The notes below the pieces were generated by a model. The model saw only the letters and a list, made by a program, of their open reading frames with translations. It did not search any database and had not been told where the DNA came from. Shown piece after piece: positions 23,880 to 31,620 of a DNA stretch of 64,000 nt. Position 1 is the first letter of the stretch, and each line of letters begins with the position of its first letter. This DNA is from Hassallia byssoidea VB512170 (GTDB taxonomy: Bacteria > Cyanobacteriota > Cyanobacteriia > Cyanobacteriales > Nostocaceae): positions 1-64,000 of the forward strand of contig NZ_JTCM02000016.1 in NCBI RefSeq assembly GCF_000817785.2. The letters run 5' to 3'. The position numbers and the translations under genes were made by a program.

Positions 23880-25001
23880 TCACTGCAAGTCAGCAAAAGT
23901 TTCTGTTGCCATTCTTAGTCTTTCCTTTAGGTTATGTTCGTTAGTTAAATCGCGTATTTTTACAGATATAGCCAGAAAATTTTTATTACTAAGTATAGTA
24001 TTATATTGTTTTTTAAATTCATCGAAATTTTCAATATTACCTGATTCTAGTCTTTTCGCTATACCAACCATGACTGCCTCGAAAAAAGTTGGAACAAATC
24101 CTTTCTCTCCTTTAAAAGCTTTGTTACCGATGCATTTGTTAATAATTTCAATTGTCGGTATAAATGCTTTTTCTATTTTCGCTTGAGAATAACAGTTAAG
24201 CTGTCTATTTTTGTTCATAAAATTATTAAGAAATTTTTTCAGCGACGGCTTGTAGTTGTTCCCCTCAAAGTAAAGTGCTATGAATCTTAGAATGAGTTCT
24301 TGGTCTTTCTTATTTTTCTCCTTATTGCCAAATATATTACGCCAAGCTTCATTATTATTCATTTCACCAATCAAATCGTTGAAATTTCCGTGGAAAATGC
24401 AAGCACGGATTTCTTGGGGTTTTAATAAAGTACCTCCTGTATTAAGTCTTTCAAAAATGTAGTAAATGCTCTCTTCGTTATTATCGCGTGGCTCAATCAC
24501 GGTTGCCGATAAAACGGAGTTGTCTAATTGTCGTCTTTCTGCATCAAGGAGTGATTCATATTTTTTACCCTCAAACTCTCGATGAACACCTTTCAAAGAG
24601 AAAGATGTCCGACTATTGGGAAATTTCCCCTCGTAAAAAGATTTAACACTAATTAATCTTTGCTGACCATCAAGTACTAACAGCTTATTTGTTTGTGAAT
24701 CTTTTGCAAGGAAAATACCAGGAACTGGTAGATTTAATAATAGAGATTCTACTAAACGCGAAGCTTGTTTAGGTTTCCATACATAAGCACGTTGAAAATC
24801 GGGAATATATATGTCATCGTTTCTTAAGCGCTTCACTATGCCTTCTACATCAAAATCGGTTCGAGAAACTGATATTGAAAACCTGGAAGGAAGGATATCA
24901 TCATCTTCATCTTCCTGATTTTCCTCAATTTGTGTTTCCTGTTCTTCATCCGCTAGACCCTCTAAGGGGTATCCATCCCTGTTTTCTTGAAACGTACTCA
25001 T
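23880..25001 (-). CDS. DUF262-domain protein (ParB/GmrSD-N-like nuclease family)
   Basis: From ATG 25001 (MSTFQENRDGYP, after a GAAAGGG site) the product has 373 residues. An acidic N-terminus (EENQEDEDDD) precedes a DUF262 domain with IPDFQRAYVWKPKQASRLVESLLLNLPVPGIFLA, VLDGQQRLISV (the DGQQR signature) and FERLNTGGTLLKPQEIR. DUF262 is the ParB-like, nucleotide-using half of GmrSD-type modification-dependent restriction enzymes, but many stand-alone members exist. No DUF1524 partner domain is present here, so an intact type IV restriction enzyme is not shown. The role may be defence-related; this is inference. Confidence 0.85.
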   Translation of the reverse strand: MSTFQENRDGYPLEGLADEEQETQIEENQEDEDDDILPSRFSISVSRTDFDVEGIVKRLRNDDIYIPDFQRAYVWKPKQASRLVESLLLNLPVPGIFLAKDSQTNKLLVLDGQQRLISVKSFYEGKFPNSRTSFSLKGVHREFEGKKYESLLDAERRQLDNSVLSATVIEPRDNNEESIYYIFERLNTGGTLLKPQEIRACIFHGNFNDLIGEMNNNEAWRNIFGNKEKNKKDQELILRFIALYFEGNNYKPSLKKFLNNFMNKNRQLNCYSQAKIEKAFIPTIEIINKCIGNKAFKGEKGFVPTFFEAVMVGIAKRLESGNIENFDEFKKQYNTILSNKNFLAISVKIRDLTNEHNLKERLRMATETFADLQ

Positions 25002-25188
25002 ACTGTGACACCCTTTCTCAAATGACTGAATTTTATAAATGTACACAGTTATAAATAATACCAAAATAATGGTTTATCTGCCTTGACGCACTCCACCACT
25101 TCTCAACCGAGTGCGAGACGCAAAGCTTTCGCCCCCATCAAAGTACCGTAAAATAATATCGAAATATAAGCTTTTTAAAGGAGCAGTT

Positions 25189-25365
25189 ATTCTTCCCACA
25201 GCACAACAAGCTTTAAAGTGTGTTTACTTGTGTCAAGCATTGACAACTGTTTACAAACCAATTTATATGGTGCGTCTGGATAAACGCACAGGCAAACTGT
25301 TCATCCTCGCTGGAGATGATATACAAATTTTGATTAGTCGTGATGGAAACTGGGACTATTTATGA
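25189..25365 (+). CDS. DUF6888-family small protein (start codon uncertain)
   Basis: The conserved part reads LPTAQQALKCVYLCQALTTVYKPIYMVRLD...GKLFILAGDDIQILI...GNWDYL, which I place in the cyanobacterial DUF6888 family. The best ribosome binding site (AAGGAG, 25178-25183) is 5 bases before an ATT codon at 25189, exactly where relatives begin Met-Leu-Pro-Thr. ATG 25111 is in frame 26 codons upstream but adds non-conserved sequence; ATG 25267 would cut the domain. The stop overlaps the next start (ATGA). Function unknown; the gene pair resembles a two-gene module. Confidence 0.7.
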   Translation: MLPTAQQALKCVYLCQALTTVYKPIYMVRLDKRTGKLFILAGDDIQILISRDGNWDYL

Positions 25366-27302: not shown

Positions 27303-28916
27303 TTAAACAGAAACTTTTTTGCTAATATAATCGACAGCCTGTTGAACTGTTGTAATTTTTTCAGCAGCTTCATCAGGAATTTCAATATCAAATTCCTCTT
27401 CCAAAGCCATAACTAACTCTACCGCATCTAAAGAATCTGCTCCTAAATCTTGAATAAAGTTGCTGCTGAGGGTTATTGTGTCTGCTTCAACTGATAACTG
27501 TTCAGCAATAATATTTTTTATTTTTGTAAATATTTTTGCTTGGAAATTATAGTTTATTGAAGGCTCTATTGCTAAATTTTCGGTTTCTGTTTGGGTGATT
27601 TGAGAATTGTTAGCTAATTTTTCTTCTCCTTCATCTTCAGATTCGTCTCTAATTTGGAAATAGTAATATAGATTAGCAACAGCCAAATCTGATGCTTGTT
27701 GTAAATTCGATGGAACTAAAGTTTTGTAACCAGCGTTAGCAGCTTGTTGATTAATATAAAGTTCCGACTGTTGGCGTAGTTGAGAATCGAACAAGTATAA
27801 TAGCTGGTCGCGTAGAGAGTAGAAATGAGATTTACCTGCTAAATCTTCGTATGTTAATTGTTCTGGTGGTGCTAAATTGGTATCTTGGCTAATTATCAAA
27901 TCTGAGTTATTGAAATCAGCGCTGGTTAAAAGTTTTAATTCTGATGATGGAAGCGATACTCCTTGGGAGTCACTTCGCGATCGCATCCAATCAATATGAT
28001 TTTGCCATGAGTTTAATACTTCTAAATCGTGATTGTAAATACGGGTAATTTCCGGAAAGAGAAAATCAAGCTCATCGTGGGATTCACAACTATTAATAAT
28101 ACCGACAGCATCTTGACAAACTTTATCCTGCAACTGAGATATTCGCTCACTTACCGCTGACATTTCATTTTGTACTTGATAAGTTGCAATAATTCCCTGT
28201 TCAATTATCCAAGCACATTCGAGTCTTCGTAGTTGTCCAGCAGCAGAGGTTTCTTCTAACAAATGGGGGTTTGTATAATCTGCCAAAGCTTCAAATAACA
28301 TTCCCCTCGCACCGTCAATTTCAGCATTTCTGCGACTTGCATCTTGTAATTGCATCGCTGAACGAAAGCGATTTATTGCTTGGATAAACAACCCATACGC
28401 TCGTACTAAAACTATACGGTGTTGTTCAAATTTGATGTCTTGGGATATCTCCTCAATTATTTGCCTAATTTCTGCTCCTTGGTCTTTTAAGGCTTGCTTG
28501 AGGTCAATAAACCCATTTTTGACCTCTAACCGCATTTGCTCAACTTCTTTTCTAAGTTTTAGTGTTTGATGCAAGTTTATCGCTGTCAATGCAATACCCG
28601 CTACTGTTCCCACACCAATCAAAGCTGTAGTTCCTTGCAGCACTCCCAAACTAGTTTGTATGCTTTGCAAACCTTTCATAACATCTGCAAAGCCTCGCTG
28701 CGTTTGGTACATTTGCACCCCACTAGTAATAAATTGAGAAGCAGCTAGCAGCGGAGATAGAGGACTGTTGCCGACAGTAGCAGCGATCGCATGACCAACA
28801 AACTCTCCTGTAACAGCATCTCTAGCCATACTTATTGGTACACCGTTGCTAAAAACTGGAATATATTTGCCAGCTTGAATACCCGCTTCGATTAAAGGAG
28901 AAAATTGGAATTGCAT
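27303..28916 (-). CDS. Membrane/coiled-coil protein with C-terminal acyl carrier protein domain
   Basis: The 537-residue protein ends in a complete acyl carrier domain (about 458-537): [20 protein letters not shown] and [20 protein letters not shown], nearly the fatty-acid ACP sequence, with Ser495 of the DSL motif as the phosphopantetheine site. The N-terminal part has a hydrophobic segment (about 91-115, [20 protein letters not shown]) between helical regions, then a strong coiled coil ([16 protein letters not shown]). About 280 helical residues and an acidic linker follow. The coil-hydrophobic-coil pattern recalls helical membrane-inserting proteins. I do not recognise the N-terminal family. 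It is divergent from a dynamin-like gene, with 142 bases between starts, so they may share control. Confidence 0.88.
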
Positions 28917-29058
28917 AGCTGTGGATTGATAGAAGTTTTATTGCTTCGAGGCTAACTTGTTTAGAAAAGTGAAAATAACCGTATTTACTCGGTATATTGA
29001 TAAATTTTGTCTAAACCTGGGAATAATAAATTTGAAAAGTCTACGCATCGCATAATTT

Positions 29059-31620
29059 ATGGATACTTCCCTCGTTAATCCTCAGATTGTTGATTTGTTA
29101 TCACGGATTAGTGGACAAAAACTGACTCAACGCGAATTTACCCCACCCGTAATATTTTTGGCAAATTTGGTAACTATACTACTCGGAGTCATATTTGTAG
29201 ATGGCATAGTCGCAGAGTCAGAAAAGCAAAGACTACTAAAAGCTCTTTATCGATTTAGTACCCCGGAAAGTGGTGTGCGGCGATTAACACATTTAATGAT
29301 TAAGGGAATCAAAGAAAACCAGCTTTATAAAAAAATTAATGATTTACTTACTGTCAGTATTCCCCTTTCTGATTCCGAAAAGTTATTATTGATTGCTTTT
29401 GGCTATCAAATGTCAGCCGCAGATGGCAAAATGAACTTTCGTGAGAAGCAATATTTGGAAATAGTAGCCAAAAAATTAGGTATTAATCAAAAACATTTGG
29501 CAGTTTTAGAAGCTGGATTTACTAATCAAAATATTGTCGATTCTATTGCTTTAGAAGAAGTACGATTTTTGTTAGATCCTTCTCAATTTCATAACTTAGA
29601 TTTGATGTTTGTTAAAGCTGCAAGCGATATGCTAGCGACTTTACCTGCTAAACCCGAAAACAAAGTAATTAAACGGACAAAAAAATCTTACGACGAATTG
29701 AAACAATTCCAAAAGCATCAAAAAGAATTAGATTGCTTTTGTTTTCGTCTTTTCCAGATAGTAGAAGATTGTCAAGAGCGCGGTTTCTTAGCTTACACTT
29801 TGATTGATGAAGTCCGTAAGGTATCTAAACAATTACAATCGCCGAGTTTTCGTTTAGCAGTTGTAGGAGAATTTAGCCAAGGTAAATCAACATTACTAAA
29901 TGCTTTACTAGGTGAAGAAATTCAACCAGCAAGAGAGATTCCTTGTAGTGGTGCAGTAACAGTATTGAAATATGGAACCCAAAAGCGGGTAATCTGTCGA
30001 TATAAGGATGGAAGAGAAGAAGAAATTCCATTTAGTGAGTATCAACTAAAAGCAACAATTTCCGAAGATGCAGCACTCGGATGTCTTAGCGATGAACTAG
30101 CAAATAACGAAATTGAGGAAATAGTTTTTGAACATCCAGATTTAGAATTATGTAGCAGCGGAGTAGAAATTATAGATTCCCCAGGATTGAACGAACATGC
30201 GGAACGTACCGCAATTACTCAAAGAATACTCAAAGATACAGACGCAGTAATTTTTCTAACTAATGCTTCACGTTCGTTAACTCAAGGTGAACGTGACTTG
30301 CTGCGAGATTTGAAGATTCAACTTAATCACGGTAAAGAAAATCAACCAGCTAAGAACCTTTTTGTAGTCGGTAACTTTATGGATTTGGTGCGAACTGAAA
30401 AGGGACGCGAACAAGTCCAAGAAAGAATAAAAAGATTTGTACAAGGTGAGAATCCTCTCATTTCTGGTGAAAACCGCGTTCACTTTATTTCTGCTCAATC
30501 TGCTCTAAATGCTTTTTTGCAGGGTAATGAAGATGAGTATTCTAAAAGTTTTGATAATTTTACTCAGTCTCTTGAGAATTTTTTGATAAATGAGCGTGGA
30601 GTAATAAAAAATAATCGCTCTGTTGCCGATATTAATTATTTAGTTCAACAAAGTTTAAATGGATTGGAACAAGCTGAACAAATATTAGATGGTAAGGTAA
30701 CTATTTCTGAAGTTGAAAAACAGAAAATATTTGAACAAATTGGTGAAGCAAGCGGTCGTGATGTCAGAATCCGTTTAGTAGCTTCTCAATTAATAGAGCA
30801 AGTGATTTCAGAAGCGGCTGAATCTTGGGATAAATGGTGCGAAGGATTAGGCGATCGCATGGCTGAAAAAAGCAAACACTGGTCTTCTGAACACAGTCCT
30901 GTCTGGAGTCAAGATAAACTAATCAAAGATTATACAAATCACTTTCTCAAAGATTTATCTAAAGAAATAGACAAATGGGGAAACCAACAACTTAAAGATG
31001 TCATATTGCAAAATAATCTCAAAGTTTTAGATGCAAATATTGAGTATGAGCTAGATGCAATTAAATCTAAATTTAAAAACATTGAACAGCAAGTAAAAGC
31101 CAATTTTAGCGAACAGCTTCAACTGTCCATAAATGGTATAAATGATGATTTTATGGGTTTAGGAGGATTTGGTGGCGGTTTAGGGATAGGTGGTGCTTTA
31201 GCTGTTGGATTACTGGCATTTACAGGAATTGGCTTCGTTGGAATAATTATTGCCAGTTTAGCAGCAACAATTGCTGGTTCGTTTGGTTTGGGAATGTTTG
31301 ATGTTGATGGATTGCATCACCAGATTAAAATGAAAATTTTTGAAATAGGATTTCAAAAGTTTGATGAATCAATGGATAAAGTTTCTGAAAAGTTACACGA
31401 AATTACTACTTCAGTTTTTGATAGCAAGGTTGAATCTGCAAATCGAGTAATTGCTCAAGCGATCGCGCTTTACGAAAATCTCATAGAACAGCACGAACAA
31501 GCACACAAAGAAACTGTAGAAGAACAGCAAACGCAGAAGGCTTGGATATCTGAAAAACGTCAAGAAATTGAGAAAGTCAAAAATGATATCGAAGCAATTT
31601 TACAACAATGCGTTGTTTAG
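29059..31620 (+). CDS. TerB-domain dynamin-like GTPase
   Basis: The 853-residue protein has a TerB-like helical domain (about 30-150; paired motifs VDGIVAESEKQRLL and ADGKMNFREKQYLE). This is followed by a dynamin-family GTPase: P-loop GEFSQGKST at 270-278, the switch Thr in PCSGAVT, DSPGL at 373-377 and NFMD as the fourth motif. A helical stalk follows, with a hydrophobic glycine-rich segment at about 696-748 (GGLGIGGALAVGLLAFTGIG...) that could insert in membrane like the paddle of bacterial dynamin-like proteins, and a C-terminal coiled coil. It should remodel or fuse membrane in a GTP-dependent way. The N-terminal TerB domain and the ACP-fusion neighbour are unusual. Confidence 0.9.
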   Translation: MDTSLVNPQIVDLLSRISGQKLTQREFTPPVIFLANLVTILLGVIFVDGIVAESEKQRLLKALYRFSTPESGVRRLTHLMIKGIKENQLYKKINDLLTVSIPLSDSEKLLLIAFGYQMSAADGKMNFREKQYLEIVAKKLGINQKHLAVLEAGFTNQNIVDSIALEEVRFLLDPSQFHNLDLMFVKAASDMLATLPAKPENKVIKRTKKSYDELKQFQKHQKELDCFCFRLFQIVEDCQERGFLAYTLIDEVRKVSKQLQSPSFRLAVVGEFSQGKSTLLNALLGEEIQPAREIPCSGAVTVLKYGTQKRVICRYKDGREEEIPFSEYQLKATISEDAALGCLSDELANNEIEEIVFEHPDLELCSSGVEIIDSPGLNEHAERTAITQRILKDTDAVIFLTNASRSLTQGERDLLRDLKIQLNHGKENQPAKNLFVVGNFMDLVRTEKGREQVQERIKRFVQGENPLISGENRVHFISAQSALNAFLQGNEDEYSKSFDNFTQSLENFLINERGVIKNNRSVADINYLVQQSLNGLEQAEQILDGKVTISEVEKQKIFEQIGEASGRDVRIRLVASQLIEQVISEAAESWDKWCEGLGDRMAEKSKHWSSEHSPVWSQDKLIKDYTNHFLKDLSKEIDKWGNQQLKDVILQNNLKVLDANIEYELDAIKSKFKNIEQQVKANFSEQLQLSINGINDDFMGLGGFGGGLGIGGALAVGLLAFTGIGFVGIIIASLAATIAGSFGLGMFDVDGLHHQIKMKIFEIGFQKFDESMDKVSEKLHEITTSVFDSKVESANRVIAQAIALYENLIEQHEQAHKETVEEQQTQKAWISEKRQEIEKVKNDIEAILQQCVV

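Follow-up and report, generated by a model that had tools for sequence, protein, structure and literature searches.

For BDLP it is established that the GTPase cycle drives polymerisation on the membrane, which takes place through the paddle. Dynamin-like proteins are common in cyanobacteria, and what most bacterial dynamins do is still uncertain (PMC5827413). DynA, a Bacillus dynamin, delays phage lysis (PMC8844932), and some dynamins form two-gene units, namely the tandem pairs LeoA-LeoBC and BDLP1-BDLP2 (PMC4159319). GUN4, a tetrapyrrole sensor of photosynthetic status (PMC7159879), has also been described among the modules that make up conflict systems in cyanobacteria (Kaur et al. 2020, PMC7159879; 2021, PMC8195603). 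Here we describe a divergent gene pair in 64,000 nucleotides of Hassallia byssoidea VB512170 (contig NZ_JTCM02000016.1, positions 1 to 64,000; this whole stretch is called the window). Gene A encodes a core followed by an acyl carrier protein (ACP) domain, and gene D encodes a dynamin-like GTPase. Our tentative reading, with a probability of roughly 0.4, is that the pair acts on membranes as a surveillance or conflict module in which A would be the sensor-scaffold and D the effector.

By its GTPase motifs, helical neck and trunk, and paddle, D appears to be a dynamin of the BDLP/mitofusin type. The Dynamin_N match (E 3.5e-28) covers residues 266-417, and G270, F272, S273, G275-T278, D373, P375 and G376 are invariant in 17 sequences. 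D matches BDLP in sequence (2j68, E 5e-29) and in fold (2j69, Foldseek E 7e-18); its fold also matches 5oxf, 6j72, IniA and mitofusins, with low model confidence at residues 696-725. The paddle segment, residues 713-731, has a mean Kyte-Doolittle value of 2.45 over 19 residues, and the TerB domain (PF05099, E 1.5e-7) scores 32.1 bits against a curated cut-off of 24.4. An earlier reading made from the letters of the window alone (the sequence-only reading) had described a divergent dynamin of 853 residues with an N-terminal TerB domain and a hydrophobic insertion, 142 bp away from A, and all of this held.

D shares the GTPase, neck, trunk and hydrophobic paddle with Nostoc BDLP, DynA, IniA and LeoA. 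It differs from the BDLP branch in adding an N-terminal TerB domain and a divergent partner that is not a dynamin, in having relatives without the GTPase, and in its very variable trunk. The pair is a two-gene dynamin unit, as LeoA-LeoBC and BDLP1-BDLP2 are, and in PADLOC-DB 2.0.0 D matches only the dynamin models LeoA (E 5e-21) and LeoBC (E 1e-13), with A matching no model up to E 1. However, A is no dynamin, since it has neither a GTPase match nor similarity to D, and the two genes are divergent rather than tandem. The sequence-only reading knew of no described system with this pairing; nor did we find one among the papers listed by our searches of the open-access literature, which leaves most subscription journals outside, so this is not proof of absence.

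The evidence that carries our reading begins with the pairing itself. The loci come from searches of 149 relatives and of named genomes, the latter keeping the best 80 of 171 loci. Loci were told apart by the opening 300 bases of their A match, which gave 115 distinct ones after 18 duplicates were dropped (the sets L061-L114 and L120-L199 overlap). Without 22 truncated and 2 broken A genes there are 91 intact A cores. A core was called intact when its match begins no later than residue 5, reaches residue 410 or beyond, and lies in a stop-to-stop frame of 400 amino acids (aa) or more. A frame homologous to the stalk of D lies within 4.5 kb of 87 of the 91 (E 6e-22 or better, with a stalk profile built from 34 partners, many of them out of these same loci). 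In 85 cases it is divergent, and in four (L073, L088, L089, L173) it is a fragment of 98-221 aa. The other four intact cores have a contig end within 1.1 kb. Every intact A core with enough flank (87/87) has a stalk-homologous neighbour, and the co-occurrence that the sequence-only reading had proposed as a check of its two-gene system is what we see. Distances between A cores and between GTPases are correlated as well (Mantel r 0.75 over 50 loci, with none of 999 permutations as high). We rejected a local coincidence because 87 of the 91 cores have the partner and the rest lie near contig ends, and we take the two genes to belong together as a conserved divergent module. So far this two-component module has been seen only in cyanobacteria: all of the best 80 of 171 named-genome loci have cyanobacterial titles, and the statement covers these 80 and searches that otherwise stayed within this phylum.

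Partners fall into several classes among these 80 loci. A partner with TerB and GTPase is found at 53 (51 of them divergent), a stalk-only partner at 7, a TerB-stalk partner at 6, a GTPase without TerB at 4, of which L178 and L179 are truncated, and TerB only at 1, which is at a contig edge; 9 show none of these, 4 of them near contig edges. The count scores TerB and GTPase matches and not intact genes, so that the degraded type I loci L122 and L155 are entered as stalk only. The stalk-only partners, of about 340 aa, are homologous to the stalk of D (hhalign probability 99.9, E 3e-37); they have no GTPase or TerB match, and no paddle-like segment was seen in the 11 examined. The genome of H. 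byssoidea holds one pair of each kind, the TerB-GTPase pair described here and a stalk-only pair (L085, G000:C105). What all these pairs have in common is thus the A core and the stalk. The GTPase, TerB, the paddle and the C-terminal module of A are optional.

Two further observations concern the partner. At L062 (8505-9416 and 9457-11217) a stalk-only open reading frame (ORF) of 303 aa, left over when TerB and the GTPase were lost, lies next to an intact A that carries GUN4, possibly a fresh origin of the stalk-only configuration. Loci L115, L116, L117, L118 and L119 encode proteins of one or two copies of the TerB-like domain of D; in the 15-16 kb fetched around them there is no match to the A core or the stalk and no strong GTPase match.

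The features of the pair are collected in Table 1.

Table 1. Features of the A/D locus, in window positions.
Feature	Position	Strand	Basis
Gene A, core of unknown family and C-terminal ACP, 537 aa	27303..28916	-	ORF list, homologues, AlphaFold model (mean pLDDT 82.8)
ACP domain of A, residues 459-535	27312..27542	-	Pfam, NCBIfam, structure match
Ser495 codon, predicted phosphopantetheine site in DSL	27432..27434	-	Sequence
Core of A, residues 1-432, part common to homologues	27621..28916	-	Homologue alignments
Part of the core with the highest hydrophobicity, A residues 97-115	28572..28628	-	Kyte-Doolittle
Intergenic region A/D, 142 bp, presumed site of both divergent promoters	28917..29058	.	
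Palindrome ACCG-N8-CGGT, candidate operator	28978..28993	.	Recurrence in homologous intergenic regions
Gene D, TerB-BDLP dynamin-like GTPase, 853 aa	29059..31620	+	ORF list, Pfam, sequence and fold matches
TerB-like domain of D, residues 37-147; not present in every homologue	29167..29499	+	Pfam
Dynamin GTPase core of D, residues 266-417; P-loop GEFSQGKST (270-278)	29854..30309	+	Pfam, alignment
Helical stalk of D, residues 513-853, part common to partners; trunk (about 600-800) most variable	30595..31617	+	
Hydrophobic paddle of D, residues 713-731	31195..31251	+	Kyte-Doolittle

The AlphaFold model of A has short N-terminal strands and then a mostly helical body, and the linker between core and ACP is poorly conserved. 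We found no Pfam or NCBIfam family above cut-off for the core and no convincing PDB-sequence match, and the profile searches stayed at chance level; the known unrelated family that would have told against the sequence-only reading did not appear. In the fold search with the whole model, ACP structures are found among the matches listed (best 50 of 523 and best 50 of 856) because the ACP fills the match list, and the viral structure library gave phage carrier proteins and weak long matches. A relation of A to the stalk of D was also rejected, as hhalign found no similarity between A and D. The sequence-only reading had called A a membrane protein that ends in an ACP. The ACP end stood, and the membrane label is not secure: the most hydrophobic 19-mer, residues 97-115, has a mean Kyte-Doolittle value of 1.77, which would fit a hairpin touching the membrane as well as a transmembrane helix.

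Pfam (PP-binding, E 3e-16) and NCBIfam (acyl carrier protein, E 3e-34) both show a canonical ACP at residues 459-535 of A, and it has a structure match of Z 17.2 over 80 residues. The full carrier domain with Ser495 in DSL, as first read, was confirmed by these matches and by counting residues. Like the ACP of type II fatty acid synthase (FAS) it has the fold and the DSL motif, and it is often 70-78% identical to the stand-alone ACPs of relatives. It differs in being fused, in forming a separate tree lineage and in losing the serine in 3 of 14 cases. The 16 fused and remnant rows stand apart from 18 FAS ACPs with support 97/89, a comparison that used 18 of 20 FAS ACPs, as the motif filter missed those of the H. 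byssoidea genome itself (L200) and of G132 (L207). A recent copy of the FAS ACP was rejected because of this split. With one fused-ACP lineage, the simplest history is that the domain was captured once, long ago, and then either lost repeatedly or exchanged between A genes.

What stands at the C-terminus of A is variable. On a tree of 90 A cores, 71 proteins have no module there, 13 have the ACP, 3 have a domain that we call X80, 2 have GUN4 and 1 has both ACP and X80; the ACP is absent from 76 of the 90. The C-terminal state changes 15 times on the tree against a mean of 18.3 in shuffles, where 15 is approximate because this is a quick tree with several long branches. Presence of the ACP alone is hardly clustered (11 changes, with 59 of 500 shuffles as low). 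X80 is found in Microcoleus/Tychonema relatives (L166, 8001-10466; L169; L156; L175). It matched no Pfam family in the two that were scanned (L166, L175), and in L166, L169 and L156, three of the four, it holds a long hydrophobic stretch rich in Gly and Ala. The nearest relative of the A described here, L122, has a core 91% identical and GUN4 (Pfam E 1.6e-38) in the place of the ACP. At both GUN4 loci the partner has lost its GTPase. A does carry exchangeable modules at one fixed C-terminal position, which is a likeness to the GUN4-bearing conflict systems only. It shares with those systems that GUN4 is among the modules and that they are cyanobacterial, but neither A nor D has a STAND, MoxR or vWA domain (Pfam, these two proteins only). 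PMC7159879 and PMC8195603 do not mention dynamin or acyl carrier, and PMC8195603 does not mention TerB.

Eleven of the 14 fused ACPs keep DSL; L067 has DFL, and in two Tychonema proteins (L152, L156) the modification loop is replaced. As three of the 14 are without the phosphopantetheine serine, an acyl-ACP signal cannot be general. The sequence-only reading had the acyl-ACP report or deliver fatty acids where the dynamin acts, and as a general account this is not supported: the ACP is absent from most A proteins, GUN4 can replace it, its serine is lost in some, and the GTPase of the partner is not constant. The ratio of nonsynonymous to synonymous substitutions (dN/dS) of the ACP is below 1 in all 14 pairs compared (0.11-0.61, by a crude Nei-Gojobori count with high dS in some pairs). 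By group, the H. byssoidea, Calothrix and Nostoc proteins give 0.11-0.32, the Anabaena-Aphanizomenon pair gives 0.39, and the Microcoleus/Tychonema clade gives 0.27-0.61. An ACP fused to the partner of a dynamin, apparently long kept yet repeatedly lost or replaced, is unusual. At L107:7530-7904 (G034) the A core is gone except for its tail, residues 408-432, which survives together with an ACP frame of 88 aa.

The stalk of D shows variation of another kind. Between the Nostoc-type loci L131 and L132 and eight other loci (16 pairs), the A core is 88-95% identical and TerB 84-92%, and the first stalk segment is 41-53% identical. Since all 16 pairs involve L131 or L132, they count as about one event. 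Between L131 and L127, identity per 40 residues is 36-70% from about residue 400 to 800 and is back to 85% beyond. L070 against L069 and L144 against L063 also show a drop and a recovery around the trunk. That pairs so alike elsewhere differ sharply in the trunk points to an arms race or to a role in specificity, and we found no report of trunk variation of this kind for this family in the open-access literature searched.

Decay of the pair has a direction. Three of the 22 truncated A genes (L066, L068, L195) sit at the edge of a contig. Of the others, L105 forms a complete divergent ORF, L106 is a piece from the interior, and 17 are without the N-terminal end only. All 17 of these, which lie away from contig edges, keep the C-terminus and lack the end on the intergenic side (counted by eye); five of them start at residues 78-84, and these might represent a shorter form that still works. 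The truncated D genes likewise lack their intergenic-side end (L062, L073, L074, L075, L094, L108, L111, L112, L113), and by eye there was no reverse truncation, with the C-terminus lost, in A or D away from edges among the loci compared. Since truncated A and D genes keep their C-termini, deletions tend to remove the shared centre. At L074, L083, L111 and L113 the intergenic region and both N-termini are deleted and the C-terminal halves of A and D are almost directly joined. As judged from their layout, these joined remnants look like a recurring pattern rather than random decay.

From these results we propose how the pair might work. Because the linkage of A and stalk is near-obligate, we infer that the A core most likely binds the helical stalk of its partner. 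By analogy with BDLP, the GTPase cycle of D would drive polymerisation on the membrane via the paddle. A would hold or release the stalk as a sensor-scaffold, if signalling runs in that direction, and its C-terminal slot would accept interchangeable input modules, the ACP among them; where the serine is kept, the ACP may plausibly read the acyl or FAS state. The pair would then serve a costly, diversifying function other than housekeeping, for instance to postpone lysis or to give up a cell that is damaged or infected. Module exchange, trunk divergence, frequent loss and the loss of the shared centre together suggest surveillance or conflict over housekeeping. We favour the conflict role because of the module exchange, which includes GUN4, the trunk variation and the frequent loss, and because DynA delays phage lysis. 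A more specific form of this, which we regard as unlikely, is a new immune or self-recognition module in which an invariant A restrains the stalk, senses through host-derived 'bait' (ACP, GUN4, others) and fires a dynamin with a strain-variable trunk, with GTPase-free relatives acting by the stalk alone.

Several results weigh against a conflict role. The A tree largely follows the cyanobacterial orders, unlike many mobile defence systems, and there was no tblastn match to the A core in 72,556 plasmids or 50,697 phages and none by a pattern scan of IMG/VR. Defence families are not clearly enriched around the pair: the 80 neighbour proteins of 20 loci hit 86 PADLOC families and the 79 control proteins of 20 regions hit 76 (simple ORF calls; the family lists give the first 25 families of each among the matches listed). 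The dN/dS of the A core is low, 0.10-0.33 (simple Nei-Gojobori, dS being high for some pairs), and the core itself is therefore not diversifying. The trunk evidence comes from a small number of cases, three separate ones. No donor of the divergent trunk was found, the best match outside L131 and L132 being 54-55%, and without a donor, exchange and fast divergence cannot be told apart.

The alternative that survives best is membrane maintenance, which widens the idea of the sequence-only reading: the pair would remodel the plasma membrane or the thylakoids, and ACP and GUN4 would inform the dynamin about the supply of fatty acids and chlorophyll precursors. ACP and GUN4 are both tied to the building of photosynthetic membranes. 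The role of GUN4 as a tetrapyrrole sensor (PMC7159879), the BDLP fold of D, the inheritance largely along orders, the absence of a clear defence-island signal around the loci and the ACP dN/dS below 1 in every pair all fit this. However, a match is found in only 40 of 386 cyanobacterial genomes, 71 of the 90 A proteins have no C-terminal module and three of the 14 fused ACPs lack the serine, the partner GTPase is lost at both GUN4 loci, and module exchange and trunk divergence would be odd for such a role. We consider maintenance possible and place surveillance or conflict only a little above it.

A further reading, in which the ACP is an inert relic of a single old fusion that the pair does not need, is improbable. 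The single fused-ACP lineage with its many losses (counted here as 12 changes of ACP presence) and the poorly conserved linker agree with it, but dN/dS is well below 1 in the group of H. byssoidea, Calothrix and Nostoc and is 0.39 in the Anabaena-Aphanizomenon pair, and DSL is retained in 11 of the 14 fused ACPs. We give slightly less credit to the idea that the ACP and GUN4 of A are integrated copies of host proteins targeted by invaders, so that disturbing the decoy triggers the dynamin. In its favour, host-like domains are exchanged at one fixed slot, X80 also takes up this slot and three of its four copies carry long hydrophobic stretches, and three fused ACPs have only the modification site lost or replaced with the rest of the domain recognisable. 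Against it, no phage factor against a cyanobacterial ACP or GUN4 is put forward here, and simple relaxation could account for the changes in the loop (dN/dS 0.27-0.61 in the clade concerned).

The intergenic region carries a candidate control element. In 52 homologous pairs the A/D spacing is mostly 82-89 or 135-150 bp, and the others are 72, 178, 203, 1267 and 1520. The palindrome ACCG-N8-CGGT was found in 26 of 95 homologous intergenic regions, many of them from Nostocales, and was absent from those of Microcoleus/Tychonema that were scanned. Within 1.70 Mb of locus DNA, 26 of its 34 copies are inside A/D intergenic regions. A stricter pattern has a single copy in the H. byssoidea genome, which is the one between A and D, and 25 copies in 21 of 59 genomes against 16 copies of a reversed control pattern. 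The motif outside the A/D locus is weak evidence for a regulon that shares the palindrome.

Near the pair in the window there is a GmrSD_N (DUF262) protein (23880-25064, minus strand) close to PADLOC NsnA (E 6e-71), possibly a separate defence gene, and divergent from it a DUF6888 protein (25111-25365, plus strand). At one of the 20 sampled loci the neighbour proteins, 80 in all for the 20, include ones similar to PtuA and PtuB (Septu).

For the study of bacterial dynamins, the pair offers a defined partner gene, a natural deletion series (without TerB, without the GTPase, without the paddle or without the ACP) and a shared intergenic region, and with these the regulation of a bacterial dynamin would become directly testable.

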